Shown in pieces: positions 2,856 to 47,851 of a stretch of DNA of 64,000 bases; within the stretch, counting starts at the first letter, position 1; every line of letters begins with the position of its first letter. The notes beneath the pieces are model-generated. The model made no database searches and was not told the DNA's origin. It saw only the letters and a program-made list of their open reading frames with translations. The stretch covers positions 2,548,501 to 2,612,500 of the forward strand of contig NZ_CP107811.1 in the NCBI RefSeq assembly GCF_036346105.1, in the 5' to 3' direction. The position numbers and the translations under genes were made by a program. This stretch comes from Streptomyces sp. NBC_00539 (GTDB taxonomy: Bacteria > Actinomycetota > Actinomycetes > Streptomycetales > Streptomycetaceae).

Positions 2856-2861
2856 TTTCAG

Positions 2862-12320: not shown

Positions 12321-12350
12321 GAAGGGGCGGTCCTGCGGGACCGCCCCTTC
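12321..12350. terminator. Bidirectional terminator between convergent genes
   Basis: A hairpin of GAAGGGGCGGTCC and GGACCGCCCCTTC around a short loop, between the Nudix gene (plus) and the last AIM24 gene (minus). Confidence 0.7.
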
Positions 12351-12374
12351 CGCATGGCCTGCCGTCCGGCCGGA

Positions 12375-13130: not shown

Positions 13131-13147
13131 GATGTGTCCGCTCCCCC

Positions 13148-13846
13148 TCAGCCCCGGGCCCGGAGCCGGTCGGTGCTGTCCTCGCTGGGCTGTACGACGA
13201 CGATGCCCTGCCCTGAGAAGGCCATCTGGTAGGCCTCCCCGCTGCCCCGGCCGATCATCGACGAGGCCTTGAAGCTGCGCTTGCCCTTGACCTTGAGGTT
13301 GGGGGACCAGGCGACGAGCGCGTCCGGGTCGACGTACGTCTCGTCCTCCCCGCGGCCGCAGTCGACCACGACCGGCGTGCCGCGCGAGGTGATGGCGACC
13401 CAGCCGGTGCCGGAGATCTGTACGTTGAACAGGCCCTGACCGGCGAATTTGGCCATGCCCTTGACCCGCTCGACGCCCCACTGGAGCTGGGCGTCGAAGG
13501 CCAGCAGGTTGGTGCCGTTCACGGAGAGGGCGTCGTTGTTGAGGTTGATGACGACGACGTCCGCGCCGTAGTCGGCGAGGTAGAGCAGGCCGTCGCCGGT
13601 GCACTTCATCAGCGGGGCGCCTTCGCCGGTGAGCCACTGCGAGGCCATCTGGCGCACGGCGGGCGGGTTGGGCTCGTACTGCACGAAGCCCTCGTAGGCG
13701 ACCATCGAGCCGGTGCGCGCGAAGAGGTCGTGGCCGCTTTGCATGGCGACCTTGAGCATGGCCGGGCCGTGGTTCTCCATGCGGGCCGTGACGGGGGTCG
13801 GGGCGTAGCCCGCGAGCTGCTGGTTCATTGCGTTCATGGCATTCAT
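13148..13846 (-). CDS. AIM24 family protein 2
   Basis: A 232-residue AIM24-family protein, middle gene of the trio. It shares DLFARTGSMVAYEGFV, GAPLMKCTGDGLLYLADYGADV and the terminal SGQGIVVVQPSED with its neighbours. The N terminus has an MNAMNAMN motif; ATG 13846 is preceded by GGGAG at seven bases. It starts 11 bases after the TerD-AIM24 stop. Three AIM24 paralogues of differing linkers in one operon suggest subunits of one assembly. Confidence 0.88.
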   Translation of the reverse strand: MNAMNAMNQQLAGYAPTPVTARMENHGPAMLKVAMQSGHDLFARTGSMVAYEGFVQYEPNPPAVRQMASQWLTGEGAPLMKCTGDGLLYLADYGADVVVINLNNDALSVNGTNLLAFDAQLQWGVERVKGMAKFAGQGLFNVQISGTGWVAITSRGTPVVVDCGRGEDETYVDPDALVAWSPNLKVKGKRSFKASSMIGRGSGEAYQMAFSGQGIVVVQPSEDSTDRLRARG

Positions 13847-26042: not shown

Positions 26043-29000
26043 CTAACCGTCCGCCTGGGGGGCGCCGTCCGTGCCCGATGTGCCTTGGAGGATCCGCTCA
26101 AGACGGGCCCTGTCGGGCAGGTCGCGGGGACGGATCACGCGCCCGCTGCGGACGTGGAGGAACGCGGCGGAGACCCGGTCGAGCGGGGTCCGGGTGGCCT
26201 CGGCCCAGGCCAGGCGGTAGACGGCGAGCTGGAGGGGGTCGGCCTCGGTGGTCCGGCCGGTCTTCCAGTCGACGATCTCGTACGAGCCGTCGGGGTTCTT
26301 GTAGACCGCGTCGATCCGGCCGCGGACGACGCGGCCGGCGAGGGTGAGCTGGACCGGGGCCTCCATCCGGTGCGGGGTGCGGTCGGCGAACTCGCTGCGC
26401 TCGAAGGCGGCCTTGAGGGAGGCGAGGTCGGCCTCGTCGGCGATGTCCTGGTCGGAGGCGGCGCCGGGGAGCTCGGTGGCGGGGTCGAGGACGTCGAGGA
26501 GGGGCAGCGGGAGCTCGTCGAAGCGGGACTCGACCCAGGCGTGGAAGCGGGTGCCCTGGCGCGCGGCGGGCTGGGGCGGCTTGGGCATGGGGCGGGCGAG
26601 CTCGCGGGCGAAGCCCTCCTCGTCGGCGGCGAGGCGCAGCAGCTGGCTGGCGGAGAGGGAGGCCGGCAGCTCGACGTCGCGCACCGCCGTACGGGCACGG
26701 CGGAGCTCGCCTTCGAGCGCGTCGAGATCCCGGTCCCAGGAGGCCACGGTCCGCGCCTCTTCGGCTCCCGGCGCTTGCGCGCCGCCCCCGCCGGGGCCCT
26801 GGGCCCGGGCGGGGGCCTCCGGCCACGGATCCTCGCCGGGCGCGCGGGGGCCGGCCCAGGGCCCGGGGCCGTCGGCGGGTACGGCGGAGCCGGGCCGTGG
26901 CGCTTCGCCGTGTGCGGCACGGGGCGAGGGCCCCGCCGGAGGGGCCTGCGGCCACAGGTCGTCCGCGGGCGCGGTGGCCCAGGCCTCGGCCTCCCAGAGG
27001 TCCTCGGCGGGGGCGGTCCGGGGGCCGGGCAGGGCGGTCCGGGGGCGCGGGAGCTCGGGGGCGGCGGCGCCCGGGTCGGGGTCCTGGCCCGGGCCCGGCT
27101 CCGGGTCCGGGTCCGGAACGGGGTCCCGGTCCGGGTCCAGGTCCGGGTCCAGGTCCAGGCCAGGCTCCAGGTCCAGGTCCGGGTCCGGCCACGGGGGGTC
27201 GTCGTAGGACGGCTCCTCGCAGTGCGGGGGCCAGAGGTGGGCGGTCGAGAGGTGGGACTCCACCAGGGCCGCCGCGCGGCGGCGACGCGCCAGCGAGGCC
27301 GGGTCCAACGGGAGCGGCCAGGCGTGGTCCGCGCTCGCGGCGGCCGTCAGGGCCGGGTTCTCCGCGTCGCGCTCCGGCTCGTCCGCCCAGGCCTCGATCT
27401 CCCCGTGGCCCGCCTCGCAGTGCGCGTACAGGGCCTCCAGGAAGGCCGACGGCCCCCGCGGCTTCTTCTGCGTCGGGCCCCACCAGTGCCCGGAGGCCAG
27501 CAGGAGCGAGCGCGGCCGCGTGAACGTCACGTACCCCAGGCGGAGTTCCTCCACCGCCTTGTGCTCTTTCAGCCCGGCCTTGAACGACTTGAGGCCCGCC
27601 GAGGTCCACGCCGGATCCGCCGGCAGGGTCGCGGCGTCGCCGCGCAGCGCGTACGGCAGGACCTTCGCGTACGAGGTCCAGGCCTCCGGCGGCTTCTCCT
27701 TCGGGAACGCCCCCGCGCACAGGCCCGGTACGACCACCACGTCCCACTCCAGCCCCTTGGACTTGTGGGCCGTCAGCACCTTGACCGTGTTCTCCCCGCC
27801 CGGCAGGGCGTGGTCCAGGCCCTTCTCGTACTGCGCGGCCGTGCGCAGGAAGGCGAGGAACGCCAGCAGCGACGCCTCTCCGTCCAGCGAGGCGAACCCG
27901 GCCGCGACGTCCAGGAACCCGGACAGCGTCTCGCGCCGCCGGGCGGCCAGCGCGTGCGGGGAGGCGGACAGCTCCACCTCCAGCCCGGTCACCGCCAGCA
28001 CCCGGTGCAGTACGTCCATCAGCGGGTCGGCGAGCGAACGCCGCAGGTCGCGCAGCTCCTGCGCGAGGTACGCGAAGCGGACCCGGGCCTCCGCGGAGAA
28101 CGGCAGGTCCTCGCCCGGGACGGCCCCGGCGGAGTCCAGGAACGTCTCCAGCGCGTCCGCGAGCGAGATGACCTCCACCGGGTCCACGCCCTCGACGGCC
28201 GCCGCGAGGCGCTCGTCGGGATCCACCGCACCGGGCGCGCGGCCGACCAGCTGCCGCGCCCGCCGCCCCAGCAGCGCCAGGTCGCGGGCGCCGATCCGCC
28301 AGCGCGGGCCGGTCAGCAGGCGCACCAGCGGGGCGTTGGCCCCCGGGTCCTGGAGCACCTCGCACACCGCGACCAGGTCCGCGACCTCGGGCAGGTGCAG
28401 CAGGCCGGACAGCCCGACCACCTCGACCGGCACCTCGCGGGCCACCAGTACCGCCTGGATCCGCGCGAAGTCCCCGGCCGAGCGGCACAGCACCGCGATC
28501 TCGCCCGGCGCCGTCCCGGTACGGACCAGGTGCGCGACGGAGTCGCCGAGCCACTCCAGTTCCTCCGCGTGCGTGGGCAGCAGGGCGCAGCGGACCGAGC
28601 CGGCCCGCTCCTCCCCCGGCGCGGGCCGCAGCGCCTCGACGCCCTCGTGCATGGCGCGCAGGGGCGCGGCGAGGCCGTTGGCCAGGTCGAGCAGCCGTCC
28701 GCCGCTGCGCCGGTTCTCGCTGAGGGAGTACCGGGTGGCGGGGCTGCCGTCCGCGTTCGGGAAGTGCTCGGGGAAGTCGTCGAGGTTGGCGACGGAGGCG
28801 CCGCGCCAGCCGTAGATCGCCTGGCAGGGGTCGCCGACGGCGGTCACGGCGTGCCCCGTGCCGGCGCCGAACAGTGCGGACAGCAGCAGCCGCTGCGCGA
28901 CGGAGGTGTCCTGGTACTCGTCGAGCAGGACGACCCGGAACTCCTCGCGCAGCAGCGCCCCCACCTCGGGCCGGGTGGTGGCGAGCCGCGCGGAGAGGGC

Positions 29001-29780
29001 CATCTGGTCGCTGAAGTCGTACAGGTCCCGGGAGCGTTTGGCTTCGCGGTAGCGCTCGGTCAGCTCCAGCAGTTCGAGCCGGCCGCGCACCGCCTCGGGG
29101 ACCTTGCGCAGGTCGTCGTTGGTGAGTCTGGTGCCGGCGAGTTCGTCCAGGAGCCGGGTGTCGTACGTACGCAGTTCCTCGGGGCCGACCAGGTGCTCGG
29201 ACAGCTCGGCGTCGAGCGCGAGCAGGTCGCTGACCAGGTCGGGCAGGGATTTCGTCAGCGACGGGTACGGGCCGGGGGCCTCGCGCAGCACGCGGGCGGC
29301 GAGCTGGAAGCGGGTGGCGTCCGCGAGCAGCCGGGAGCTGGGTTCCAGGCCGATGCGCAGGCCGTGGTCCTTGAGGAGCTGTCCGGCGAAGGAGTGGTAG
29401 GTGGAGATGCGGGGCTCGCCGGCGGCCGCGCCGCCCTCGGCCGGGGCGGAGCCCGAGGACGGGTCCGGGGAAGGGTCCGGGTCGCTGATGCCGGCGCCGG
29501 CGAGGGCCTTGCGCACGCGCTCCGCGAGCTCGCCGGCGGCCTTGTTGGTGAAGGTCAGGCCGAGGACCTGTTCGGGGGCGACCGCGCCGGTGCCGACCAG
29601 CCACACCACGCGCGCGGCCATGACGGTGGTCTTGCCGGAGCCGGCTCCGGCGACGATGACCTGGGGGGCGGCCGGGGCGGTCGCACAGGCCAGCTGTTCC
29701 GGCGTGAAGGGGATCCCGAGGAGCTCCTTGAGCTGCTCGGGATCGGTGAGGGCCGGTGGGCCGGACGGACGCGCGGACAC
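26043..29780 (-). CDS. adnB: Helicase-nuclease AdnB
   Basis: A 1245-residue subunit of the AdnAB helicase-nuclease, which resects double-strand breaks in actinobacteria in place of RecBCD. Walker A GAGSGKT (45-51), VLLDEYQDTSVAQ, GDPCQAIYGWRGA and the UvrD C-terminal helicase motifs come first. A PD-(D/E)XK nuclease follows with RGRIDAVYKNPDGSYEIVDWKTG. Between helicase and nuclease lies a long disordered stretch dominated by Asp-Pro and Asp-Leu repeats. No iron-sulfur cysteines. It starts 47 bases after the AdnA stop. The adnAB locus is reported essential in Streptomyces. Confidence 0.93.
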   Translation of the reverse strand: MSARPSGPPALTDPEQLKELLGIPFTPEQLACATAPAAPQVIVAGAGSGKTTVMAARVVWLVGTGAVAPEQVLGLTFTNKAAGELAERVRKALAGAGISDPDPSPDPSSGSAPAEGGAAAGEPRISTYHSFAGQLLKDHGLRIGLEPSSRLLADATRFQLAARVLREAPGPYPSLTKSLPDLVSDLLALDAELSEHLVGPEELRTYDTRLLDELAGTRLTNDDLRKVPEAVRGRLELLELTERYREAKRSRDLYDFSDQMALSARLATTRPEVGALLREEFRVVLLDEYQDTSVAQRLLLSALFGAGTGHAVTAVGDPCQAIYGWRGASVANLDDFPEHFPNADGSPATRYSLSENRRSGGRLLDLANGLAAPLRAMHEGVEALRPAPGEERAGSVRCALLPTHAEELEWLGDSVAHLVRTGTAPGEIAVLCRSAGDFARIQAVLVAREVPVEVVGLSGLLHLPEVADLVAVCEVLQDPGANAPLVRLLTGPRWRIGARDLALLGRRARQLVGRAPGAVDPDERLAAAVEGVDPVEVISLADALETFLDSAGAVPGEDLPFSAEARVRFAYLAQELRDLRRSLADPLMDVLHRVLAVTGLEVELSASPHALAARRRETLSGFLDVAAGFASLDGEASLLAFLAFLRTAAQYEKGLDHALPGGENTVKVLTAHKSKGLEWDVVVVPGLCAGAFPKEKPPEAWTSYAKVLPYALRGDAATLPADPAWTSAGLKSFKAGLKEHKAVEELRLGYVTFTRPRSLLLASGHWWGPTQKKPRGPSAFLEALYAHCEAGHGEIEAWADEPERDAENPALTAAASADHAWPLPLDPASLARRRRAAALVESHLSTAHLWPPHCEEPSYDDPPWPDPDLDLEPGLDLDPDLDPDRDPVPDPDPEPGPGQDPDPGAAAPELPRPRTALPGPRTAPAEDLWEAEAWATAPADDLWPQAPPAGPSPRAAHGEAPRPGSAVPADGPGPWAGPRAPGEDPWPEAPARAQGPGGGGAQAPGAEEARTVASWDRDLDALEGELRRARTAVRDVELPASLSASQLLRLAADEEGFARELARPMPKPPQPAARQGTRFHAWVESRFDELPLPLLDVLDPATELPGAASDQDIADEADLASLKAAFERSEFADRTPHRMEAPVQLTLAGRVVRGRIDAVYKNPDGSYEIVDWKTGRTTEADPLQLAVYRLAWAEATRTPLDRVSAAFLHVRSGRVIRPRDLPDRARLERILQGTSGTDGAPQADG
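27066..27192. repeat. Hexanucleotide repeat tract inside adnB
   Basis: Runs of GGTCCG/GGTCCA hexamers in frame encode the Asp-Pro/Asp-Leu linker (for example DLDPDLDPDRDPVPDPDPE on the minus strand). Length variation would be tolerated because the unit is a multiple of three. Confidence 0.85.
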
Positions 29781-29827
29781 CCCGAAAGGCTAGCCGCCCG
29801 CACTGACAGCCCCCGCCGCCCGGACCG

Positions 29828-32800
29828 TCATTCCACGGTGTGACGGCCCTCCGGGCGGGCGCTGCACGCGCTGCGGAAGGAGCAGTGGTCGCAGTGCTGG
29901 CCGGTAGTGGGCGTGAAGCGCTCGTCCAGCACCCGGCCGGCGGCGGTGGCGAGCAGGTCGGTGGCCCACTCGCCGTCCGGCGGCGGCTGCGCCTGGACCT
30001 TCGGCACCTCGTCGCCGCCGTCGCGCTTGGCGGCGCCCTGGCGCAGCTGCACGAGCTCGGCGCCGCCGGGTTCGGGGCGTCGGCCGTCGAAGACCTCGTC
30101 GACGGCACCCCCTCGGACCGCGAGCTGGTAGACGGCGAGCTGGGGGTGCCGCGCGACCTCGTCCTTGGTGGGCGCGGCCTTGCCGGTCTTGAAGTCGACG
30201 ACGTACGCACGCCCCTGGGGGTCGGATTCGACCCGGTCCATGGAACCCCGGATGCGAACGGCGAAGTCGCCCGCTTCGAGCGTGACGTCGAAGTCGTGCT
30301 CGGTGGCCACGGCCGCCCTGCCGCCCCGGTCGGTGGCGTGCCAGCGCAGGAAGCGTTCGAGGGCGGCGCGGGCGTTGTCCTTCTCCTGGCGGGACTTCCA
30401 GGGGGCGTCGAAGGCGAGGGCGTCCCAGACGGAGTCGAGGCGTTCCATCAGGACGGCGAGGTCGGCGGGGGTCCGGCCGGAGGCGACTTCGTCGGCGAGG
30501 ACGTGGACGACGTTGCCGAAGCCCTGGGCGGCGGTGGAGGGGGCGTCGGCCTTGACCTCGCGGCCGAGGAACCACTGGAGGGAGCAGGTGTTGGCGAGCT
30601 GGTCCAGGGCGCTGCCGGACAGGGCGACGGGCCGGTCGCGGTCGCGCAGCGGGACGCTGCTGCGGGTGGGTTCGTACAGGCCCCACCAGCGCTGCGGGTG
30701 CGCGGCGGGGACCAGGGGGCGGCCCTCGTCGTCGGTGAGGGCGGCGAGGCGGGCGAGGCGCCGGGCGGCGGCGTCGCGCATCGCCTCGGAGGCCTCGGGG
30801 TCGACGGTGGTGGCGCGGAGTTCCGCGACGAGCGCGGGGACGGAGAGGGGGCGGCGGGGGCGGCCGGTGACGTCCTTGACCGGTACGCCGAGTTCGGTGA
30901 GGAAACGGGAGGGCTGGTCGCCGTCCTCGGCGGGGGCCTTGACGGCGGTGACGACGAGGCGGTGGCGGGCGCGGGTGGTGGCGACGTAGAAGAGCCGGCG
31001 CTCCTCGGCGAGGAGCGCGCCGGGGGTGAGCGGGTCGGCGAGGCCGTCGCGGCCGATGCGGTCGGCCTCCAGGAGGGAGCCGCGGCGGCGGAGGTCGGGC
31101 CAGAGCCCTTCCTGGACGCCGGCGACGACCACGAGGCCCCATTCGAGGCCCTTGGAGCGGTGGGCGGTCATCAGCCGGACGGCGTCGCGGCGGTGGGCCT
31201 TGCGGGTGAGGGTGTCGGCGGCGATGTCCTCGGCTTCGAGCTGTTCGAGGAAGTTGAGGGCGCCGCGGCCGCCGGTGCGTTCCTCCGCGCGGGCGGCGGT
31301 GTCGAAGAGGGCGCAGACGGCGTCGAGGTCGCGGTCGGCGTTGCGGCCTGCGGCGCCGCCGCGGCGGGCGCTGCGTTCGAGGCGCTGGGGCCAGGGGGTG
31401 CCGTCCCAGAGGAGCCAGAGGGCCTCTTCGGCGGTGCCGCCGCCTTCGAGGAGTTCGCGGGCCTTGCGCAGGAGCAGGCCGAGGCGTTGCGCTCCGCGGG
31501 CGTAGGCGGGGTCGTGGGCGACGAGCCGCTCGGGCTCGGCGAGGGCGCGCGCGAGCAGCACGTCGGAGGGCGCGGGCACGGCGACCCCGGCGGCCCGCTC
31601 CTCGTCCCGCAGCGCCCGCCCGAGCCGGCGCAGGTCGGCCGCGTCCATCCCCCCGAGCGGCGACCCCAGCAACGCCACGGCCGCCTCGACACCGACCCAC
31701 CCCGCGCCGGCCGCCTCCGGATCGGCGGCGTCGCCGGACGGGGCGGGGCCCTCGCCCGGCCCGGCGGTGGGACCGGCCGGCTCGGCCAAGGCGCTGCGGC
31801 CGGCCGCGTCGGCGTCGTCGGCACCGCAGGCCACGGTCGAGCCCGCCCCCGGGCCGGCCGGAGCCGCGACCGGCTGCGCCGGGACGGCGGCAAGGGGGTG
31901 GCCGCCGGAGTCCGCCGGGGCCGGGACGCCGGCCGCCGGCCCACCGGAATCGGCGGCCGGGGTACCGACGGAGCCGGCGGCCGGGGTGCTGACGGGCTCC
32001 TCGCCCTGGCCGGGCAGCGCCGCGGGGGCGGCCGAGGCGGCGGCCGTCGCGGTGAGGCGGAGGGCGGTCAGGAGGGGGGCGACGGCCGGCTCGTGGCGGA
32101 GGGGGGTGTCCGAGCCGTCCGTCTCCGCCGGGACCCCCGCCGAGATCAGCGCGCGGCGCATCGCCGGGAGCGTGCGGCCGCCCGCGCGGACCAGGACGGC
32201 CATGTCCCGCCACGGCACGCCGTCCTCCAGGTGGGCCCGCCGCAGGATGTCGGCGATGTTGTCGAGCTCGGCGCCGGCCGTCGGGTACGTGTACACCTCC
32301 ACCCGGCCCCCCTCCCGTACGGGCTGCAGCGCCCGGTGCGCCCGGACGGCGGCCGACGGCAGGCGCGGCACCGGCATGCGGGTGGTGAGCAGGCGGGTGG
32401 CGGCCAGCAGGGCGGAGCCCGAGCGGCGGCCGACCGTCAGGGCCCGTACCTCCGCCCCCGGGAAGGAGCCCTCGAAGTCGAGGATGTTGTTGATGTCGGC
32501 GCCCCGGAACGCGTAGATCGACTGGTCCGGGTCGCCGAAGGCGACCAGCGTGCCGCCCGGCCCGTTCAGCGCGCGCAGCAGCCGCAGCTGCGAGGCGTCC
32601 GTGTCCTGGTACTCGTCGACGTAGATCACGTCGTACGCGCAGGCCAGTGCCGGCGTGCGCTCCGCGAGGAGCACGGCGCGGTGCAGGAGCTCCGCGTAGT
32701 CCAGGGCGCCTTGGAGGTCCAGGACGTCGAGGTACTCGGAGAGGAACGCGGCGGCCGCCTTCCAGTCGGGGCGGCCGATGCGGTCGGCGAAGTCCGACAG

Positions 32801-33379
32801 GGCGTCCGGTCCCAGGCCCAGCTCCCGCGCGCGGGCCAGGACGGCCCGGACCTCGTCCGCGAACCCCCGGGTGGTCAGCGCGGCCCGCAGGTCGTCCGGC
32901 CAGCGGATGGAGCGGATCCGGCGCTGGCCCTCCAGCAGGGTGCGGACCATCACGTCCTGCTCCGGCCCGGACAGCAGCCGCAGGGGGTCGGCGAACAGGT
33001 CGGTGTCCTGGTGGGCGCGGACCAGGCCGTAGCAGAAGGAGTGGAAGGTGGTGGCCTGCGGGGCGCGGGCGCCGCCGAGCCGCAGGGCGGCCCGGTCGCG
33101 CAGCTCGACGGCCGCCTTGCGGCTGAAGGTCAGGATCAGGATGCGGGCCGGGTCGGTCCCCGCCTCGACCCGGGCGGCCGCCGCCTCGATCAGCGTGGTG
33201 GTCTTGCCGGTGCCCGGCCCGGCCAGCACCAGCAGAGGTCCCCGGGTGTGCTCAACCACCGCGCGTTGCGCTGCGTCCAGGACAGGGGGAGCCACCCGTT
33301 CCGGCCCGGTGCGCACCAGGCGGTACGCGTCGGAGGCACGCGTGCGCCGCTCAGAGCGGTCGGAGGGGGAGGTGATCAC
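29828..33379 (-). CDS. adnA: Helicase-nuclease AdnA (iron-sulfur nuclease)
   Basis: An 1183-residue partner of AdnB, encoded upstream of it. Walker A GPGTGKT (54-60), IYVDEYQDTDASQ and GDPDQSIYAFRGA mark a UvrD-type motor. The C-terminal nuclease has GSMDRVESDP...VVDFKTG. A cysteine in LANTCSLQWF plus CDHCSFRSAC near the end form the four-cysteine site of an AddB/AdnA-type iron-sulfur nuclease. A 120-residue Ala/Pro/Gly-rich insertion (about 31.7-32.1 kb) splits the helicase region. GTG 33379 is the likely start; in-frame codons further up encode a proline-rich tail of doubtful use. Confidence 0.92.
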   Translation of the reverse strand: MITSPSDRSERRTRASDAYRLVRTGPERVAPPVLDAAQRAVVEHTRGPLLVLAGPGTGKTTTLIEAAAARVEAGTDPARILILTFSRKAAVELRDRAALRLGGARAPQATTFHSFCYGLVRAHQDTDLFADPLRLLSGPEQDVMVRTLLEGQRRIRSIRWPDDLRAALTTRGFADEVRAVLARARELGLGPDALSDFADRIGRPDWKAAAAFLSEYLDVLDLQGALDYAELLHRAVLLAERTPALACAYDVIYVDEYQDTDASQLRLLRALNGPGGTLVAFGDPDQSIYAFRGADINNILDFEGSFPGAEVRALTVGRRSGSALLAATRLLTTRMPVPRLPSAAVRAHRALQPVREGGRVEVYTYPTAGAELDNIADILRRAHLEDGVPWRDMAVLVRAGGRTLPAMRRALISAGVPAETDGSDTPLRHEPAVAPLLTALRLTATAAASAAPAALPGQGEEPVSTPAAGSVGTPAADSGGPAAGVPAPADSGGHPLAAVPAQPVAAPAGPGAGSTVACGADDADAAGRSALAEPAGPTAGPGEGPAPSGDAADPEAAGAGWVGVEAAVALLGSPLGGMDAADLRRLGRALRDEERAAGVAVPAPSDVLLARALAEPERLVAHDPAYARGAQRLGLLLRKARELLEGGGTAEEALWLLWDGTPWPQRLERSARRGGAAGRNADRDLDAVCALFDTAARAEERTGGRGALNFLEQLEAEDIAADTLTRKAHRRDAVRLMTAHRSKGLEWGLVVVAGVQEGLWPDLRRRGSLLEADRIGRDGLADPLTPGALLAEERRLFYVATTRARHRLVVTAVKAPAEDGDQPSRFLTELGVPVKDVTGRPRRPLSVPALVAELRATTVDPEASEAMRDAAARRLARLAALTDDEGRPLVPAAHPQRWWGLYEPTRSSVPLRDRDRPVALSGSALDQLANTCSLQWFLGREVKADAPSTAAQGFGNVVHVLADEVASGRTPADLAVLMERLDSVWDALAFDAPWKSRQEKDNARAALERFLRWHATDRGGRAAVATEHDFDVTLEAGDFAVRIRGSMDRVESDPQGRAYVVDFKTGKAAPTKDEVARHPQLAVYQLAVRGGAVDEVFDGRRPEPGGAELVQLRQGAAKRDGGDEVPKVQAQPPPDGEWATDLLATAAGRVLDERFTPTTGQHCDHCSFRSACSARPEGRHTVE

Positions 33380-33637
33380 GTGGGGTGCCGGTCCTGGTGG
33401 GTCTGCGGGCGGTACGGGTGGTTCGGCTGGCGCGGATGCGCCGGGCGGTGCGTCCGGGGCGTCGCTCGCGGCGGCGCCGGGCGGGACGGCCGAAGAGGCA
33501 ACGCTACGCCACCGGCACCGCCCGCCGCAGTCGTCCCGCGGGCACCGGCGCGGTACGCAGGGCGCGCCGCCGACCCCTCGTGCCGTCCTCCGTACGAGCC
33601 TTCGACCTCCCGCCCGGGCCACGAATGGCCGAAGCTG

Positions 33638-39557: not shown

Positions 39558-40736
39558 TCAGTAGACCGGCTTCTCCGGCTCGATCTGGTGGACCCAGCCG
39601 ATGACCCCGCCGCCGACGTGCACCGCGTCGGAGAAGCCCGCGGACTTCAAGACCGCGAGGACTTCCGCACTGCGGACACCCGTCTTGCAATGCAAGACGA
39701 TGCGCTTGTCCTGCGGGAGGTCCTGGAGGGCCGTGCCCATCAGGAACTCGCCCTTGGGGATCAGCCTCGCGCCCGGGATCGAGACGATCTCGTACTCGTT
39801 CTTCTCGCGGACGTCGATGATCTCGATCGGCTCGTCGTTGTCGATCCACTCCTTGAGCTGCTTGGGAGTGATCGTCGAACCGGCCGCCGCCTCCTGGGCC
39901 TCTTCCGACACCACGCCGCAGAAGGCCTCGTAGTCGATGAGCTCGGTGACGGTCGCGTTCGGGCCGCAGACGGCGCAGTCGGGGTCCTTGCGGACCTTGA
40001 CCTGGCGGTACTGCATCTCCAGGGCGTCGTAGATCATCAGGCGGCCGACCAGCGGCTCGCCGACACCCGTGAGGACCTTGATCGCCTCGGTGACCTGGAT
40101 GGAACCGATGGACGCGCAGAGCACGCCCAGCACGCCGCCCTCGGCGCAGCTCGGGACCATGCCCGGCGGCGGCGGCTCCGGGTACAGGCAGCGGTAGCAG
40201 GGCCCGTGCTCGGACCAGAAGACGGAGGCCTGGCCGTCGAAGCGGTAGATGGAGCCCCACACGTACGGCTTGTTCAGCAGCACGCAGGCGTCGTTGACGA
40301 GGTAGCGGGTGGCGAAGTTGTCCGTGCCGTCGACGATGAGGTCGTACTGGCTGAAGATCTCCATCACGTTCTCGGCTTCGAGCCGCTCTTCGTGAAGGAC
40401 CACGTTCACGTACGGGTTGATGCCCAGCACGCTGTCGCGGGCCGACTCGGCCTTCGAACGGCCGATGTCCGCCTGGCTGTGGATGATCTGACGCTGGAGG
40501 TTCGACTCGTCGACCTCGTCGAACTCCACGATGCCCAGCGTGCCGACGCCGGCCGCGGCCAGGTACATGAGGGCGGGCGAGCCGAGGCCGCCGGCGCCCA
40601 CGGCGAGCACCTTGGCGTTCTTGAGGCGCTTCTGGCCGTCCATCCCGACATCGGGGATGATCAGGTGACGCGAGTACCGGCGGACCTCGTCAACGGTGAG
40701 CTCAGCTGCTGGCTCGACCAGGGGTGGCAGCGACAC
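39558..40736 (-). CDS. moeZ: Adenylyltransferase/sulfurtransferase MoeZ
   Basis: A 392-residue fusion of an E1-like MoeB domain and a rhodanese domain. It adenylates and then thiocarboxylates ubiquitin-like sulfur carriers (MoaD, ThiS, CysO) for molybdopterin, thiamin, cysteine and thio-metabolite synthesis. Seen: GAGGLGS (47-53), zinc cysteines 180/183 and 254/257, the loop cysteine in VPSCAEGG (197), and rhodanese Cys350 in LHCKTGVRS. GTG 40736 has GGAG five bases upstream. A SigR-like promoter and a CRISPR-repeat-like hairpin lie in its leader. The expected M. tuberculosis match is Rv3206c (moeB1). Confidence 0.95.
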   Translation of the reverse strand: MSLPPLVEPAAELTVDEVRRYSRHLIIPDVGMDGQKRLKNAKVLAVGAGGLGSPALMYLAAAGVGTLGIVEFDEVDESNLQRQIIHSQADIGRSKAESARDSVLGINPYVNVVLHEERLEAENVMEIFSQYDLIVDGTDNFATRYLVNDACVLLNKPYVWGSIYRFDGQASVFWSEHGPCYRCLYPEPPPPGMVPSCAEGGVLGVLCASIGSIQVTEAIKVLTGVGEPLVGRLMIYDALEMQYRQVKVRKDPDCAVCGPNATVTELIDYEAFCGVVSEEAQEAAAGSTITPKQLKEWIDNDEPIEIIDVREKNEYEIVSIPGARLIPKGEFLMGTALQDLPQDKRIVLHCKTGVRSAEVLAVLKSAGFSDAVHVGGGVIGWVHQIEPEKPVY

Positions 40737-40795: not shown

Positions 40796-40821
40796 AACAC
40801 TGCCACGCCCTTCTTCATTCC
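40796..40821 (-). promoter_or_regulatory. SigR-type promoter of moeZ
   Basis: On the minus strand GGAAT (40817-40821), exactly 18 bases, GTT (40796-40798). The -35 element overlaps the stop codon of the upstream spherulin-type gene. Confidence 0.75.
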
Positions 40822-41579
40822 GAGACACCCGGTCCGATACGCGAGACGATTTCGTCCCAGTACCCGGGCATCGACGCCCAGGGGTCGCGGTCGGCGGTGC
40901 CGCGCCGGTCGGTGAACCAGATCGTCCCGGCGCCCTGCCAGCGGGCGATCCGCAGCGCCTCGTCCAGGTGCGTGCGCGGCACCCCGTGCACCAGGTGGCA
41001 GAAGAGCTCCGGCGGGTACTCGGCCGTCCACTCCGCCACCAGTGACCAGCGGTAGTCGGCCCAGGCGCCGCAGAAGGTGACCAGCTGGTCGGCGGTCTCG
41101 ACGTAGCCCTCATAGGGGTGGGTGCCGTGGCCGAGCACGATGCGGAGCCCGTCGCCGAGGCCGCGCAGGGCGTCCACCACGCGGCGCACCGCGGGCAGGT
41201 CCTCCCGGTCGGCGGGGGTGTCGGCCAGGTAGAAGCCGCCGACCCCGTACCAGTCGCGGAAGCGGTGGGCGTCGCCGATCAGCTCCCCGAAGGACCGTGC
41301 CCCGTCCCGCATGGCGAGATGGCCGAGGAGACGGCCGCCCGCGCCGCCCGGGTCCCCCGCGTCGCGCAGCCGCCCGGCCGCCTCCGCGCAGTGTGCGTCG
41401 GGCCGTCCCCCGGGGCCGTCCGTGACGTTGAGCACCGCCCAGTGCAGCGGCGTCCCGGGACGGGTCAGCTCGGCCCACTCCACCGGGGCGAGCAGCGGGT
41501 GCGCGTACCCGGGGGTGCCCAGGCCCAGGCGGCCCGCCCCGGTCGCGGCGGCCTGGGGCGGCGTCGTCAGATGCGGCAC
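40815..41579 (-). CDS. Spherulin-4-type glycoside hydrolase-like protein
   Basis: A 254-residue single-domain protein of the spherulation-specific family 4 (relatives of GH135 Sph3 and the GH166 domain of PelA). The TIM-barrel pattern is visible: GYAHPLLAPVEW near the start, HWAVLNVTDGPG, LLGHLAMRDG, and RFRDWYGVGGFYLAD, where the family has an acidic pair. Here that acidic site is altered (LAD), so catalysis is uncertain. There is no signal peptide. GTG 41579 has GGAGG upstream and overlaps the 3' end of the epimerase gene by 13 bases, so the two are coupled. Confidence 0.8.
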   Translation of the reverse strand: MPHLTTPPQAAATGAGRLGLGTPGYAHPLLAPVEWAELTRPGTPLHWAVLNVTDGPGGRPDAHCAEAAGRLRDAGDPGGAGGRLLGHLAMRDGARSFGELIGDAHRFRDWYGVGGFYLADTPADREDLPAVRRVVDALRGLGDGLRIVLGHGTHPYEGYVETADQLVTFCGAWADYRWSLVAEWTAEYPPELFCHLVHGVPRTHLDEALRIARWQGAGTIWFTDRRGTADRDPWASMPGYWDEIVSRIGPGVSE

Positions 41580-42577
41580 GCCGCCTCCATCCAGATGTCG
41601 GCCAGGGACTCCTCCAGGTTGATCCGGGGCCGCCAGCCGAGCCGGTCGCGGGCGGTGCGGACGTCGGCCTGCTGCCAGCTGCCGCATCCGTCGGGGTACG
41701 GGGGCTGGGGGGCGGCGGCGAGTTGCTCGGCCGTGGCCTCGGCGCGGGGGGAGCCGATCGCGGGCAGGCCCTGCGGCCGTCCCGGGTGCCCGTGCGCCTG
41801 GGGGTGCTGCGCGCCGCCGTGCGGTACGTCGAGTTCGTGCAGGGAGCCGCCGTATCCCGCGACCCGGGCCAGTACGGCCGCCGCGTCGCGCAGCCGGACC
41901 GCGCGGCCGGTGCCGATGTTGACGACGCCCTGGGCGGCGGAGAGGGAGGCCGCGTGCACCGCCCGGGCGACGTCGCGTACGTCGACGAAGTCGCGCTGCA
42001 CCCCGAGCCCGCTGAGCTTGAGTTCGCCGTCGCCGGACTGCATGGCCCGCCTCATGGCTTCGGCGAGCCGGCCGAGGGGGGATCCGGCGGGGGTGCCGGG
42101 GCCGACGGGCGAGAAGATCCGCAGTACGACGGCGTCCAGCCCGGAGCCGAGCACCAGCTCGGTCGCGGCCAGCTTGCTGACGCCGTACGGTCCGCCCGGT
42201 CTCGGGACGGCGTCCTCGGCCGTGGAGGACCCGGGCTGGCTGGGCCCGTACTCGGCGGCGCAGCCGAGCTGGACGAGCCGGGCCCCGCAGCCGCTGCGGC
42301 GCAGCGACTCGCAGATGGTGGCGACGGCGACGGTGTTGTGGCGGGTCAGCTCCCGGGCGCCGCCGCGGGTGGCGCCCGCGCAGTTGATGACGACGCCCGG
42401 GTGGACGGCGTCGAGGAACCGGGTGAGGGCCCCCGGGCTGCCGGTGGCGAGGTCGAAGCGGACGTCGGCGTCGTCGCCCCGGCCGAGCGCGGTGAGCTGT
42501 ACGGCGGGGTCGGCGAGCAGCCGGTCGGCGACGTAGCGGCCGAGGTATCCGTTGGCTCCGATCAGCAGCACCCTCAT
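41567..42577 (-). CDS. NAD-dependent nucleotide-sugar epimerase/dehydratase
   Basis: A 336-residue extended SDR. MRVLLIGANGYLGRYV (1-16) binds NAD and the catalytic YGVSK supplies the Tyr and Lys, so unlike the SDR at 9-10 kb it should be active. RIFSPVGPG and GVQRDFVDVRDVARA are typical of sugar-nucleotide epimerases. ATG 42577 has AGGGG eight bases upstream. Its neighbours (PelF-like transferase, membrane protein, spherulin-type hydrolase) suggest it supplies an activated sugar for a surface glycan. Confidence 0.87.
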   Translation of the reverse strand: MRVLLIGANGYLGRYVADRLLADPAVQLTALGRGDDADVRFDLATGSPGALTRFLDAVHPGVVINCAGATRGGARELTRHNTVAVATICESLRRSGCGARLVQLGCAAEYGPSQPGSSTAEDAVPRPGGPYGVSKLAATELVLGSGLDAVVLRIFSPVGPGTPAGSPLGRLAEAMRRAMQSGDGELKLSGLGVQRDFVDVRDVARAVHAASLSAAQGVVNIGTGRAVRLRDAAAVLARVAGYGGSLHELDVPHGGAQHPQAHGHPGRPQGLPAIGSPRAEATAEQLAAAPQPPYPDGCGSWQQADVRTARDRLGWRPRINLEESLADIWMEAACRI

Positions 42578-42677
42578 CGCGCGGCCCCTTGGTTGGTTGG
42601 CTGGCCGGTCATCCTGTTTCTCCTTGGTCTGGGTGGGGTGGTGGGGGTACGGCGCTCCGGGGTCGGTTTCCGAAGGC

Positions 42678-43574
42678 TCAGGGACGCGCGTGTGCGGAGG
42701 CACGGGACAGCGCGAAGACGGCGTGTACGAGGAGTCCCGCGGCGGCGGCGAGCGGGGCCGCGGGGACCGGTACGAGGGCCACGGCCAGGGCGGCCGCGAC
42801 GGGCGCCCGGTGTGCGCCGTGGGCGAGCAGCAGCCGGGTCAGGAAGAGCAGCGCCGCGAGCGGGACGGCCACGGCCGGTGGTGCCGTGGCGAGTACGGCG
42901 GCCCCCGCGGCGGCGGCGGTGAAGGCGGCGACGGCGGCGACCAGCAGCGGCCGCACCCCGGCGGCGAAGTCCTCCAGGACGCGGCTCCCGGCCAGGCCGC
43001 GCCGGGCGCGGGCCGCGAAGGCGGTGGCGGCCAGGTGTCCGGGGGCGACGGCCAGGGCGAGGGCGACACCGAGGGCGGGGCCGTGCCGGTGGACGGCCCA
43101 GCCGACGGCGGCCGCCGCGAGCAGGTGCGGCAGGCCGGGGAACCGCCCCCCGGCGGTCCGCCCGGGCCACACGAGCGCGGCGACGGTGACGGCCACCGCG
43201 ACGGCGCCGGCCGACGGCAGCCGGGCGGCGGCGGCCCCGAGGGCGACGGCCCCGGGCAGCAGGGCGCAGCCGAAGCGGCGCAGCGCGCCCGGGGTGACGG
43301 CGCCGGCCGGGGCCGGCACGGCCCGGGTCTCGCCTCGCGGGGTGCGGGCGTAGAGCTCCTCGGCGAGGGAGAAGACGTCCCGGTGGCGGAAGCGCGCGGC
43401 GGTGCGGTCGGTGATGCCGTGGGCTTCGAGCCCGGCGGCGATCTCCAGCGGGTCGACGGCGCGTTCGCACAGGTCGCGGTGGCGGTGCAGCAGCGCCTTG
43501 ACGGGGTCCCCGGCGGCCCGCCGGCGCGGGGCGGCCGCGGGCTCGGGCCGCAGCCCGGTGTCGTCGAGGGTCAT
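42678..43574 (-). CDS. Polytopic membrane protein of the glycan cluster
   Basis: A 298-residue protein. A soluble N-terminal part (1-100) contains FRHRDVFSLAEELYARTPRG; then about seven or eight Ala/Val/Leu-rich membrane helices follow. It overlaps the upstream glycosyltransferase stop as ATGA, so the pair is co-translated. It is too short to be PelG (about 12 helices) but occupies the analogous position next to a PelF-like protein. No recognised family. Confidence 0.75.
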   Translation of the reverse strand: MTLDDTGLRPEPAAAPRRRAAGDPVKALLHRHRDLCERAVDPLEIAAGLEAHGITDRTAARFRHRDVFSLAEELYARTPRGETRAVPAPAGAVTPGALRRFGCALLPGAVALGAAAARLPSAGAVAVAVTVAALVWPGRTAGGRFPGLPHLLAAAAVGWAVHRHGPALGVALALAVAPGHLAATAFAARARRGLAGSRVLEDFAAGVRPLLVAAVAAFTAAAAGAAVLATAPPAVAVPLAALLFLTRLLLAHGAHRAPVAAALAVALVPVPAAPLAAAAGLLVHAVFALSRASAHARP

Positions 43575-45298
43575 GCCGCCGCCTCCGCGGCCGACGCGGA
43601 CCCCGCCAGGGGTGCGGCCACGGGCCCGGGCACCGGATCCGGTCCCGGCGCGAGACCCGGCCCGGGCGCGGGAGCCGGTTCCGGCGCGGGCACGGCATCC
43701 CGTCCCGGCGCGCGGTCCGCCGGCTCCGCGGCGTCGTGCGGCGCCGTCGCCCAGGTCGGCGACGTCCAGTGCCCCGGCACCCGCGCCTCCGGCGGCTGGG
43801 CGAAGGGGATCCCCCCTTCGGGCCGGGCCGGCCCCTGCGCGAGCAGGAGCAGGTAGACGTCCCTGAACGCGGCCACGTTCTGCTCGACGGTGAACAGCTC
43901 CAGGGCCCGCGCCCGGGCGGCCGCCCCGAGCCGCTGCGCCCGCTCGGGGTCCCGCAGCAGCGACAGGCAGGCCTCGGCCAGGGCCTTGGGGTTGCGCGGC
44001 GGTACGACCAGGCCGGTCCCGCCGATGACCTCGCGCACCGCGCCGACGTCGGTGGAGACGGTGGCCCGGCCGCAGAACATCGCTTCGGCGAGGGTGAGCG
44101 GGAAGCCCTCGATCACCGAGGACAGCAGCACCACCCGTCCCGCACCGTAGGCGTCGGCCGCCGACGGTGCCTCGGGTCCGCCGATCTCCTCGAAGGTCAC
44201 CGGGTTCTCCCCCATCGTGAGCGCGTCGGCGGCCTCGTCGGGGAAGAGCTGCGCGGCCAGGGAGCGGCATTCGGCCAGGTAGCCGGGGAGGGCGGCGGTG
44301 GCGAAGATGCGCAGCCGCGTCTGCGGCGCGGCCCTGCGCACCTCGGCGAACGCGTGCAGCAGGGCGACGAGGTCCTTGGCCGGCTCCATCCGGCCGACCC
44401 ACACGAGGGTGTCCGCCTCGCCGCAGCCGGGGTCCTCCCCGACGGTGGCGAATCGGTCCGCCTCCATCCCCGGGTGGACGGTGCGCACCCGCTCCCGCGC
44501 GGCCCCGCACCGCTCCTGCCAGCGGCGGGCGTGGGCGTTGCCGGGGGTCAGCAGGTCGGCCCGGGCGTAGATCTCGGCGGCCAGGCGGATGTGGAAGGCC
44601 GCCAGCAGGGCGCGTACGGCGGGCCGCTCGTCCGGGGAGTGCTCCAGGTAGTGGGCCCGCAGCCGCACCCCGTACTCGGTGACCAGCAGCGGGACCCCGA
44701 AGAAGCGTTTGGCCAGCAGCCCGGGGAGCGCCGCGGTCCCGCCGGCGGTGGCGTGGCAGACGTCCACCCGGCCGAGGTCCTCGTACCAGTCGAGGGACAA
44801 GGGCCGCAGGAGGCGCTCCAGTCCGTCCACGAACTCCAGCAGGTCCTGGACCCGGGCCGCCCGTAAGGCACGGCCCGCACCCGGTGCGCGGCAGCCGGCC
44901 TCCACTGCCCGTACGGCGGTTTCCGAGCGCAGGGCGGCGTACAGCCCGCCCTGGTCGCGGGCGAGTTCGGCCAGTCCGTACAGCCCTGCGGCGAAGGGGC
45001 CGGGCTCGCCGGCACAGATTCCGCGGACGAGGTCCCCGAAACAGTCGGCGAAGCGGCGGCGCTCACGCCGGGAGCGGCCGCGTCCGTCGTCGGCGGGGGC
45101 CCACAGCGGGGCGGTCCGCACCAGGGTGACGTTGCCGGGCAGCGGCACGCGGCCGCGCCCTTCCTGCTCGGCGCTGCGGCTCAGCGCGTAGAGCTCGAAC
45201 GCGTGCTGCGGCAGCCCGCGCACGAGCCGGTCGCACCACGCTCCGGCCTCTCCCGTCGCATACGGATAACCACCTTCCGTGAGCAGTCCGATCCGCAC
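43571..45298 (-). CDS. PelF-like GT4 glycosyltransferase
   Basis: A 575-residue glycosyltransferase. The N terminus RIGLLTEGGYPYATGEAGAWCDRL is the DUF3492/PelF signature; the GT4 part has LVWVGRMEPAKDL and the EGFPLTLAEAMFCGRATVSTD segment containing the E-x7-E donor site. The last 50 residues are a Pro/Gly/Ala tail that the family lacks. PelF polymerises the cationic Pel exopolysaccharide from UDP-GalNAc/GlcNAc in other bacteria. GTG 45298 fits the family start and has GGGGG eight bases upstream; GTG 45307 is possible. Confidence 0.88.
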   Translation of the reverse strand: MRIGLLTEGGYPYATGEAGAWCDRLVRGLPQHAFELYALSRSAEQEGRGRVPLPGNVTLVRTAPLWAPADDGRGRSRRERRRFADCFGDLVRGICAGEPGPFAAGLYGLAELARDQGGLYAALRSETAVRAVEAGCRAPGAGRALRAARVQDLLEFVDGLERLLRPLSLDWYEDLGRVDVCHATAGGTAALPGLLAKRFFGVPLLVTEYGVRLRAHYLEHSPDERPAVRALLAAFHIRLAAEIYARADLLTPGNAHARRWQERCGAARERVRTVHPGMEADRFATVGEDPGCGEADTLVWVGRMEPAKDLVALLHAFAEVRRAAPQTRLRIFATAALPGYLAECRSLAAQLFPDEAADALTMGENPVTFEEIGGPEAPSAADAYGAGRVVLLSSVIEGFPLTLAEAMFCGRATVSTDVGAVREVIGGTGLVVPPRNPKALAEACLSLLRDPERAQRLGAAARARALELFTVEQNVAAFRDVYLLLLAQGPARPEGGIPFAQPPEARVPGHWTSPTWATAPHDAAEPADRAPGRDAVPAPEPAPAPGPGLAPGPDPVPGPVAAPLAGSASAAEAAA

Positions 45299-45503: not shown

Positions 45504-46763
45504 TCAATTACCGGGGAAGACCCAGGGATTGGGCTTGCAGGCGATGTCGTCGATGTCGAGGGACTTCGTCTGCTGCTGCATGATCGGGGCGAGCGCGCCG
45601 GGCGTCCGGCAGTTGACGTGACCGTGTCCGAGCCGGTGCCCGACCTCGTGGTTGATGAGCATCTGGCGGTAGGCGAACATCTGGTCCGCGCCGTACGTCG
45701 GGGAACCCTGGGCCCAGCGGAAAGCGTTGATCATCACGCGCTCGGTGGCCGCGGAGTCGCAGGAGACGTTGTCGACGGTGGTGTCCAGCCCGGACTTGGC
45801 GCACCAGACGCCCGTGGTACCGGGGCTCGCGAGGGTGATCACGAAGTCGGCTTCGCCGCCCGGTACCCGCTCGAAGGTCATCTCCCCGTTGTGTGCCCAG
45901 CTGCGCGGGTCGTTGAGGGTGCGTTGCACCGCCTCCGCGAACAGCTGCGGGTCCAGCCCCAGCCCCTGCTCCACGTCGACCCGGTAGCGCAGCAGCTTCC
46001 CCTTGCCCGGGGCCTTGGCGATGCCGGGGACGGTGTCGAAGAGGCCGGGACCGGTGAGCTTCGCGTCGATCGGCAGCTGCTGGGCCATCTTCTGCTCGTA
46101 CGTCAGCTCCGCCGGAACCACCTCGGGCGTCGCCCGGCCCTCGGAACGGGACGCCGGCGACTGCCCGGTGGCCGGCCGGTCCTTCGCGCTGCCCGCGGCG
46201 GCCCGGGCCGGCTCGGCATCGCGGTCCCCCTGGCCGATCACTTGTCCGGCCACGACGACGGCGAGCACGGTGGTCACCGCCGCCGCGGCCATGCCGGTGT
46301 AGGTACGGATCTTCGTGCCGCGGCCGGACCCGGGCGCGGGCCCGGACTCCTGTCCGGTCCCGGCCTGCGGTCCGGGTTCGGCCTGCGGTCCGGGTTCGGG
46401 CTCCGGCGCGGCGAGCGGCGCACGGGGTCCGGGGAAGCCGACCGCGGGGGTGCCGAACGCCGGGGTCTCGGTGTCCCGCGCGGGCGGCGGCGCTGCCACG
46501 CGCGCCCGCGGCACCCCGCGCCAGTCCCCGTAGACGGTGCCGGTGCCGGTCGGCGGCCCGGCGCCCCAGGCGCCCCCGGGCTCCCGCTGTTCCGGGTGCC
46601 CGGCCGGCCGCTCCTCGCGCGGCGGTGCGCCGGAGCCGAACGCGTCGAAGGGGGCGCCGTGCGCCGGTACCCGGACGGACTCGCGCGGGCGCTCGTCCGG
46701 CGCGGACTCCCCCGGCGGCGCGGGCCTGGTGGGGGCGGAGCCCTTGCGACTATGTCGTCCCAC
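45504..46763 (-). CDS. DUF3152 membrane-anchored zincin-like protein
   Basis: A 419-residue protein. A Pro/Gly-rich cytoplasmic N terminus (1-150) leads to one membrane helix (MAAAAVTTVLAVVVAGQVIG) and an extracytoplasmic DUF3152 domain. HEVGHRLGHGH (372-382) matches the HExxHxxGxxH zinc motif of metzincin-type peptidases; four cysteines outside the membrane could form disulfides. GTG 46763 lies five bases after the upstream hydrolase stop, so the two form an operon. It corresponds to Rv3207c. Substrate unknown. Confidence 0.87.
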   Translation of the reverse strand: MGRHSRKGSAPTRPAPPGESAPDERPRESVRVPAHGAPFDAFGSGAPPREERPAGHPEQREPGGAWGAGPPTGTGTVYGDWRGVPRARVAAPPPARDTETPAFGTPAVGFPGPRAPLAAPEPEPGPQAEPGPQAGTGQESGPAPGSGRGTKIRTYTGMAAAAVTTVLAVVVAGQVIGQGDRDAEPARAAAGSAKDRPATGQSPASRSEGRATPEVVPAELTYEQKMAQQLPIDAKLTGPGLFDTVPGIAKAPGKGKLLRYRVDVEQGLGLDPQLFAEAVQRTLNDPRSWAHNGEMTFERVPGGEADFVITLASPGTTGVWCAKSGLDTTVDNVSCDSAATERVMINAFRWAQGSPTYGADQMFAYRQMLINHEVGHRLGHGHVNCRTPGALAPIMQQQTKSLDIDDIACKPNPWVFPGN

Positions 46764-46768
46764 GCGTC

Positions 46769-47851
46769 TCAGCCTCTGCCGTCTTCGGTGTCTGCCGTGT
46801 CTTGGCCCTGCTCGTTCTGTTCGCACTGCCCGGGGTGTTCCGCCTGCCCGGCCGCACGCCCCGCCGTCGGCTTCCCGGCAGCAGTCTGGCGCGCGCGTTC
46901 GGTGTCCCGCAGCAGTTCCCGGAAGGCGGTGGCCACCACCTCCGGGTACTCCATCATCGCCACGTGTCCCGCCTCGGGCAGACTCAGCAGCCGCGAACCA
47001 CGGAAGGCCGCGGCCGCCTTGTGCGCCTTGCGGAACGACACCAGCTGGTCGCGGCCGCCGTAGATCAGCAGGGTCGGCGCGAGCACCCGCTGCGCCTGCC
47101 GCCACAGTCCGTGCTGGCCACCGAGGGTGTAGGCGTCGACGATGCCGCGCGAGGAGCGGGTCATCGCGTCCCAGAAGTACGGCAGGGCCATCCGCCGTTC
47201 CATCTCCTCGACGGCGGCCTCGAAGCCCTCGGACGTCACCCGGGAGGGGTCTCCGTAACAGAGGGCCGTCACCCCCTTGGTGCGCTGTTCGGCGCTCATG
47301 CCGCGGGTGAGGCGCCCGAACAAGGTGGCCACCCCGGGCAGCGCCAGCAGGGCGGTGGGCACGGCCGACCTCTGCACGCGCAGCTCCGGCAGCGCGGGCG
47401 AAACGAGCGTCAGGGTCCGTACGAGGTCGGGCCGGACGGCGGCGACCCGGGTGGAGACGGCGCCGCCCAGGGAGTTCCCGAACAGGTGCACCGGCCCGCG
47501 TCCGGCGGCGTCGAGGTAGCGGATGACCACGCGGGCCAGGCCCGTGACGGAGTAGTCCCGGTCGGCGGGCGGCGGCGACCAGCCGAACCCGGGCAGGTCG
47601 ATGGCTTCGCAGTCCACGTCGCCGGCGAGCTGCTCCATGAGCGCCGACCAGTTCTGCGAGGACCCGCCGAGACCGTGCACGAACAGGGCGGGCGGCAGCC
47701 CTTCCCGTACCGGTGGCCGGAACCGTACGTTCAGCTCCAGACCGGACAGCGGGGCCGTGCGCAGCCGCTCCCCCTCGGCCACCCGGCCGCCCCCCACCTG
47801 GGAGGTCAGCTCGGCTGCGGCCTTCACACCCGGCAGCTCCGTCGAAGACAT
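46769..47851 (-). CDS. Alpha/beta-hydrolase
   Basis: A 360-residue hydrolase. Catalytic triad: Ser in FGNSLGGAV, Asp in YGGRDQLVS, His in EAGHVAMMEYP; FVHGLGGSSQNW forms the oxyanion loop. The C-terminal 40 residues are Gln/Glu/Gly-rich. No signal peptide. TAACAT at 47859-47864, seven bases before ATG, suggests a leaderless mRNA. It is five bases upstream of the DUF3152 gene; both are probably transcribed together. Confidence 0.9.
   Translation of the reverse strand: MSSTELPGVKAAAELTSQVGGGRVAEGERLRTAPLSGLELNVRFRPPVREGLPPALFVHGLGGSSQNWSALMEQLAGDVDCEAIDLPGFGWSPPPADRDYSVTGLARVVIRYLDAAGRGPVHLFGNSLGGAVSTRVAAVRPDLVRTLTLVSPALPELRVQRSAVPTALLALPGVATLFGRLTRGMSAEQRTKGVTALCYGDPSRVTSEGFEAAVEEMERRMALPYFWDAMTRSSRGIVDAYTLGGQHGLWRQAQRVLAPTLLIYGGRDQLVSFRKAHKAAAAFRGSRLLSLPEAGHVAMMEYPEVVATAFRELLRDTERARQTAAGKPTAGRAAGQAEHPGQCEQNEQGQDTADTEDGRG

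Follow-up and report, generated by a model that had tools for sequence, protein, structure and literature searches.

Streptomyces sp. NBC_00539 carries, within a 64,000-nucleotide stretch of its genome (NZ_CP107811.1, positions 2,548,501 to 2,612,500; hereafter the window), a locus of four genes, all on the minus strand between 40815 and 45298, which encode a PelF-like glycosyltransferase (GT), a membrane protein, a short-chain dehydrogenase/reductase (SDR) and a Spherulin-4 protein. An initial annotation had proposed this gene set together with two overlaps, one of ATGA between the GT and membrane protein genes and one of 13 bases between the SDR and Spherulin-4 genes, and the coordinates bear it out. 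The locus and its flanks are composed as follows.

43571..45298, minus strand: gene for the PelF-like GT-B glycosyltransferase (DUF3492 and GT4), 575 amino acids, GTG start (an alternative GTG start at 45307 is also possible)
42678..43574, minus strand: gene for the membrane (transmembrane, TM) protein, 298 amino acids
41567..42577, minus strand: extended SDR gene, 336 amino acids
40815..41579, minus strand: gene for the Spherulin-4 (GH135-like) triosephosphate isomerase (TIM)-barrel protein, product P0001, 254 amino acids
41567..41579, minus strand: 13-base overlap of the SDR and Spherulin-4 genes, present at exactly this length in 132 of 135 related loci
39558..40736, minus strand: moeZ-type gene (ThiF and rhodanese), conserved 3' flank; a marker of the window-type paralogue, for which no pathway role is claimed
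45504..47105, minus strand: DUF3152 (matrixin-like) gene, 5' flank often found upstream; likewise no pathway role is claimed

On our reading of the match list, a close P0001 orthologue is present, in some cases in pieces, in 57 of the 61 Streptomyces genomes sampled; one further genome (G028) holds an orthologue fragment, one (G001) only a distant paralogue and two (G037 and G044) no match, which brings the genomes with any match to 59/61. P0001 matches, both paralogues counted, occurred in 121/150 genomes of a family sample, and relatives in 11/296 genomes of a phylum sample, nine being of the same genus (our strain included) and two distant (31–33%). The nearest named relative among the matches listed is that of Streptomyces cirratus (96% identity). 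For comparison we fetched 40 genus loci, chosen from the 57 genomes with a close match, and the loci of named Streptomyces, which are the best 80 of at least 577 relatives and therefore biased to close kin; 20 distant genus matches and 20 other-genus loci from the family sample were also fetched for the synteny work. The order GT–TM–SDR–Spherulin-4–moeZ was found in 39/40 genus loci, the remaining one (L064) being without a match for the membrane protein, and in 68/80 named loci. In the other 12 named loci only upstream genes are missing, and these are precisely the loci with less than 3.1 kb of upstream sequence. The conserved synteny and the 13-base overlap rule out a chance or artefactual grouping of the four genes. 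This overlap probably couples translation of the SDR and Spherulin-4 genes, and the ATGA overlap is kept in 38/121 loci.

The aligned moeZ-linked loci number 137 (40 genus, 80 named, 16 other-genus and the window), and the comparison set consists of 25 rows from non-moeZ loci, namely the 21 agd3-type loci described below and 4 others. The moeZ-linked rows comprise 132 different sequences, and some genomes are in twice, so the rows are partly dependent. GT counts cover 122 of the 137 rows and SDR counts 136, the gene being absent or cut in the other loci.

P0001 is a relative of the GH135 enzyme Sph3 by both sequence and fold. It matched PF12138 (Spherulin4) with 55.8 bits (cut-off 30.2), as did 44/45 of its aligned relatives, and its profile matched the Sph3 structure 5c5g with E 3.8e-11. 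A Foldseek search with its AlphaFold2 (AF2) model placed Sph3 at ranks 1 and 2 (5d6t, E 1.6e-9, TM-score 0.63) and, below a designed barrel, the PelA hydrolase domain 5tcb at rank 4 (E 8.4e-4); the GH135 kinship that had been suggested for the hydrolase therefore holds. According to PMC12054363, an Asp, printed as Asp196, and Glu222 are the nucleophile and acid/base of Sph3, with equivalents in Ega3 and PelA. Residues 116 and 172 of the 5c5g chain (+50, i.e. 166 and 222) align with Ala119 and Cys170 of P0001, so that both the nucleophile Asp and the acid/base Glu of GH135 are absent; in the model, Ala119 lies at the end of one strand and Cys170 within another. We take Asp166, as counted on 5c5g, to be the residue printed as Asp196 in the literature. 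The loss of the Glu extends to 135/137 moeZ-linked rows (Glu being found in 0/40 genus, 1/80 named and 1/16 other-genus rows and not in the window), while the Glu is kept in all 25 non-moeZ rows, including 21/21 agd3-type loci. Labelled on the tree, its presence or absence amounts to three changes. The residues in its place vary (S, A, T, R, C, Q, Y, N, L and D, the Asp being that of L233).

These features do not bear out the proposal that P0001 is an active hydrolase of an N-acetylgalactosamine (GalNAc) polymer. It is without the Asp/Glu pair shared by GH135, GH114 and GH166, and a hydropathy scan found no hydrophobic N-terminus; trimming of a GalNAc polymer by P0001 is not supported because both are absent. 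An active GH135 as the default reading was dropped on the catalytic residues, and P0001 is probably a non-hydrolytic, or else rewired, glycan-handling subunit, as judged from its residues.

The GT is indeed PelF-like, as annotated: it scored 111.8 bits against the NCBIfam PelF model NF038011 (equivalog cut-off 100; best stretch 174-482), 108.4 bits against PF11997 and 80.2 bits against Glyco_trans_1_4. It keeps E-x7-E (EGFPLTLAE at 397), whose two Glu are found in 117/122 and 122/122 moeZ-linked GTs, and the R/K pair of GRMEPAKD, kept in most rows. Three other motifs, for which we assume a catalytic role in PelF, are altered in the window GT: the GGV loop reads GEA, TEHG reads TEYG (Tyr209) and NGVD reads PGME (Pro276). 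The second Gly of GGV is replaced by Glu or Asp in 112/117 resolved moeZ-linked rows and is Gly in 23/24 others; the His of TEHG is Tyr in 112/122 (His in 10) versus His in 25/25 non-moeZ rows; and the Asn of NGVD is Pro in all 122 versus Asn in 25/25. A Cetobacterium PelF whose gene adjoins pelG has the canonical GGV, TEHG and NGID, and in the structure 6tvp a His aligns with Tyr209.

The SDR likewise deviates at a conserved position. It matched PF01370 with 127.4 bits and keeps GxxGxxG and YxxxK, with Tyr in 135/136 and Lys in 136/136 moeZ-linked rows, but the Ser/Thr-Tyr-Lys triad of UDP-hexose 4-epimerases is incomplete in the window SDR, the Ser position being Cys106. This position is presumably equivalent to Ser124 of GalE. 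Cys occupies it in 134/136 moeZ-linked rows and Ser in 17/17 non-moeZ rows. The only moeZ-linked SDRs with Ser are those of L230 and L233, which have E and D, respectively, at the hydrolase Glu222 position; the third locus with an acid there, L170, has the Cys. By sequence, the best solved relative is the GDP-6-deoxy-D-lyxo-4-hexulose reductase (RMD) 2pk3 (E 2.9e-19), which has Ser in its GSSEEYG motif where the window SDR has Cys, and GalE 4zrm follows with E 2.5e-12. The nearest structures are thus GDP-4-keto-6-deoxymannose-type reductases and then epimerase-like SDRs, and the score against the GalE model TIGR01179 was 33.6 bits (cut-off 262.3). The annotation of this protein as an epimerase stands as far as the SDR family goes, but by these scores the protein appears nearer to GDP-6-deoxy-lyxo-4-hexulose reductases than to GalE, and its triad Ser is replaced by Cys; from its sequence, "epimerase" is an unproven, family-level label.

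The membrane protein has a conserved N-terminal domain (DPVKALLHRHR...RFRHRDVFSLAEELYAR), five hydrophobic segments by a simple hydropathy scan and the C-terminal sequence SRASAHA, and gave no family match at E<=1. An identity as PelG or a flippase is not supported: a relative had no NCBIfam match and no fold match at E<=0.001. Its length is about 300 amino acids in the window clade and mostly 350–450 in other Streptomyces loci.

The same genome holds two further Spherulin-4 loci.

C1:4978000-4997900, 6861-13618, plus strand: fuller locus (L007) with Agd3-like, PelF-like GT, TM, Spherulin-4 and GH114 genes, by family matches
C1:6051000-6057500, within open frame 1767-3455 (C1:6053675), plus strand: third Spherulin-4 protein (L242), lipoprotein-like N-terminus, Asp and Glu kept

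Both of these Spherulin-4 proteins keep the catalytic Asp and Glu and thus serve as an internal control. The GT of L007 (C1:4987076) is 43% identical to the window GT and scored 170.1 bits over 7-468 against NCBIfam PelF; the GH114 protein scored 287.8 bits and has a lipoprotein-like N-terminus, and the Agd3-like protein scored 22.8 bits against Agd3_CE (E 5.4e-5), below the Pfam cut-off of 27.6. Each of the latter two was the single match in the genome. The maximum N-terminal hydropathy was 2.06 for the Agd3-like and 2.08 for the GH114 protein, and 0.53 and 1.23 for the genome's operon-borne Spherulin-4 proteins, neither of which is clearly hydrophobic. L007 itself has no SDR, but an SDR homologue is present in 13 of the 21 agd3-type loci, alongside an Agd3-like gene in 20 and GH114 in 17. 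Window-type loci had neither an Agd3-like gene nor a GH114 match (0/40 fetched genus loci each).

Quick trees of the GT and of the SDR each separated moeZ-linked from agd3-type sequences by one branch with a support of 100, the SDR tree carrying a long-branch warning. The sequence comparisons show a common origin of the window GT, SDR and Spherulin-4 with agd3-type loci (in its own genome, of the GT and Spherulin-4). They further suggest, from a few long-branched rows, an order of change in which new barrel residues would have come first (L234), the GT alterations next (L230), and the SDR Cys and the loss of the Glu last. One agd3-type locus, on a Streptomyces californicus plasmid (L241; NZ_CP070247.1, 3727-13161), also encodes a sugar nucleotidyltransferase and a LegB-like 4,6-dehydratase (453.6 bits, cut-off 475), a hint that its polymer contains a 6-deoxy sugar or an amino sugar.

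How does the window locus relate to known systems? Operons containing agd3 for exopolysaccharides have already been described in Actinobacteria (Bamford et al. 2020, PMC7229062); they have a cytosolic GT, a multi-spanning membrane protein and, in some, Spherulin-4. L007 fits this description, its GT and Spherulin-4 being paralogous to the window proteins. Window-type loci differ from these operons in being moeZ-linked, in their altered catalytic residues and in having no Agd3-like or GH114 gene. The fungal galactosaminogalactan (GAG) cluster comprises uge3, sph3, gtb3, ega3 and agd3 (PMC7229062, PMC12054363) and shares with the window an SDR/epimerase, a GT with a membrane part and Spherulin-4/GH135; the window locus, unlike this cluster, is without a deacetylase or GH114. 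In fungal Sph3, which PMC12054363 calls membrane-bound, the Asp and Glu222 are present; P0001 carries Ala and Cys in their place and lacks a hydrophobic N-terminus. A PelF-family GT is common to the window and the Gram-positive pelDEA-DA-FG operon (Whitfield et al. 2020, PMC7112168); unlike the latter, the window locus has no Agd3-like deacetylase, its genome gave no PelG match, and GGV, TEHG and NGVD are changed. The PelG search (PF16933) had 0 matches in the whole genome with Thermotoga maritima as a positive control, no search being made for PelD, PelE or CE4 deacetylases; by that test, the window locus is therefore not a Pel system.

The link to Pel and GAG systems drawn in the initial annotation and the absence of PelG were thus confirmed, the former by the PelF model match and the Sph3/PelA-hydrolase fold, the latter genome-wide. 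The absence of a deacetylase holds for the window locus and window-type loci but not for the genome, which has the Agd3-like protein of L007. The picture of a simply reduced Pel system did not survive: since L007 holds the deacetylase, GT, membrane protein, Spherulin-4 and GH114, the window locus is a paralogue of that fuller system. We accordingly regard as improbable the original reading of a reduced Pel- or GAG-like locus that makes a hexosamine polymer with an active epimerase and a GalNAc hydrolase. The PelF score above the cut-off, the Sph3 and PelA-hydrolase fold and the galactosamine-containing polysaccharides of Streptomyces cited in PMC7229062 agree with it, but the Asp and Glu are absent, the SDR does not look GalE-like, the GT motifs are changed, the locus has no deacetylase, the PelG search of the genome was negative, and L007 is the better candidate for such a polymer.

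All four window genes are under purifying selection. The ratio of nonsynonymous to synonymous substitution rates (dN/dS) against nine relatives was below 1 throughout and was lowest for the SDR (0.05-0.12), followed by Spherulin-4 (0.13-0.39), the GT (0.23-0.35) and the membrane protein (0.32-0.50). A decaying duplicate, which the lost catalytic residues and the short membrane protein of the window clade might suggest, is highly improbable and was rejected on these ratios and on retention in 57/61 genus genomes plus one fragment; the synteny and the 13-base overlap are also preserved. Nor do we favor a locus that makes no polymer and acts as a sensing or regulatory module of former enzymes. 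All three enzymes do deviate from residues conserved in their relatives, but the GT keeps E-x7-E and mostly R/K, and the SDR retains its Tyr and Lys and has the lowest dN/dS of the four proteins, which makes such a module quite improbable.

A pathway that is rewired but active, working on a different sugar or linkage with a changed Spherulin-4 mechanism (e.g., through Asp224), an SDR that uses Cys106 and a GT with a changed acceptor, deserves more weight, although we consider it rather unlikely. W47, Q165, R213, Q215, T223, D224, Y240 and W241 of P0001 are invariant in all 137 moeZ-linked rows; among the 25 others, W47, Q165, T223, D224, Y240 and W241 occur only in L234, Q215 in none and R213 in 10. 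This invariance and the strong purifying selection are what a rewired enzyme would predict, and the dehydratase and nucleotidyltransferase of L241 make 6-deoxy-4-keto sugars possible substrates of the SDR family. Against this, the replacement of Glu222 is variable, unlike a new catalytic residue, and some of the lineage, including the window, has lost Asp166 as well. D224, moreover, is already present in L234, where the normal catalytic pair is kept, and thus did not arise as a substitute for the lost residues. L234 comes from another genus of the family (G367), has the order GT2-TM2-SDR-Spherulin4-GH114 without a moeZ flank, and carries most lineage invariants with Asp and Glu intact, as if a new binding site had preceded catalytic loss.

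We therefore favor, at a probability of about 0.58, the reading that the window holds a conserved Streptomycetaceae paralogue, linked to moeZ, of an agd3/GAG-type (Pel-related) operon, and that after its remodelling this paralogue encodes a membrane complex which makes a glycan and whose Spherulin-4 protein no longer cuts. With a hydrolase lacking its cutting residues and altered active sites in the GT and SDR, the locus probably does something new. In this model, whose cellular location, complex formation, chain binding, export and product we infer, the cytosolic PelF-like GT would dock on the membrane protein via the conserved N-terminal domain of the latter and build a glycan from a nucleoside diphosphate sugar made or edited by the SDR. 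A cytosolic Spherulin-4 protein, produced in step with the SDR, would use its barrel to bind the growing chain or sugar rather than to cut, and would serve as a subunit for holding, length sensing or regulation. The product would not be de-N-acetylated by the window locus, and would therefore be unlike Pel and GAG in charge; it may be exported or anchored via the membrane protein. More tentatively, and with some doubt, the whole operon may have been duplicated and its three enzymes co-remodelled (a Glu-less GH135, a Cys-triad SDR and a mostly His-less PelF) into a genus-wide glycan machine with a cytosolic pseudo-glycosidase handling the nascent chain.

Several observations weigh against the favored reading. 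The Asp166 equivalent is kept in 86/136 moeZ-linked rows (window left out), which makes residual or altered catalysis possible, and an acid, Asp224, follows directly after the last barrel strand in every moeZ-linked row. Two loci depart from the pattern: L170 (Streptomyces bambusae T110), the sole named moeZ-linked row with Glu at 222, has Ala at 166, and L230 keeps both Asp and Glu despite its moeZ synteny. A Cys in the SDR triad need not abolish activity. The AF2 model of P0001 is modest (predicted local distance difference test score, pLDDT, 62.5; best in 46-222 and poor in 1-45 and 223-254), and its cytosolic placement derives from the hydropathy scan. The model of a membrane protein relative (L175, 365 amino acids; pLDDT 83.5, about 8 long helices) had no fold match in the PDB at E<=0.001, leaving the export role without structural support. 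Finally, all moeZ-linked rows come from a single bacterial family.

The coexistence of a fuller agd3-type locus with a paralogue changed at conserved positions in all of its enzymes provides a natural comparison within one genome. It raises the testable questions of which glycan streptomycetes make with the window-type locus and why a polymer-cutting enzyme survives the loss of its cutting residues, and it cautions against annotating window-type genes as an active hydrolase and epimerase. A literature search, with most subscription journals outside its scope, yielded no paper tied to the window locus, and a term search of PMC4255298 gave no match.

The neighboring genes that were scanned are of ordinary chromosomal kinds, among them those for helicase/nuclease proteins, UPF0182 and moeZ. 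At 26043-33622, the window encodes two adjoining proteins that combine a UvrD helicase with a PD-(D/E)XK nuclease, a pair that we take to resemble AddAB/AdnAB.

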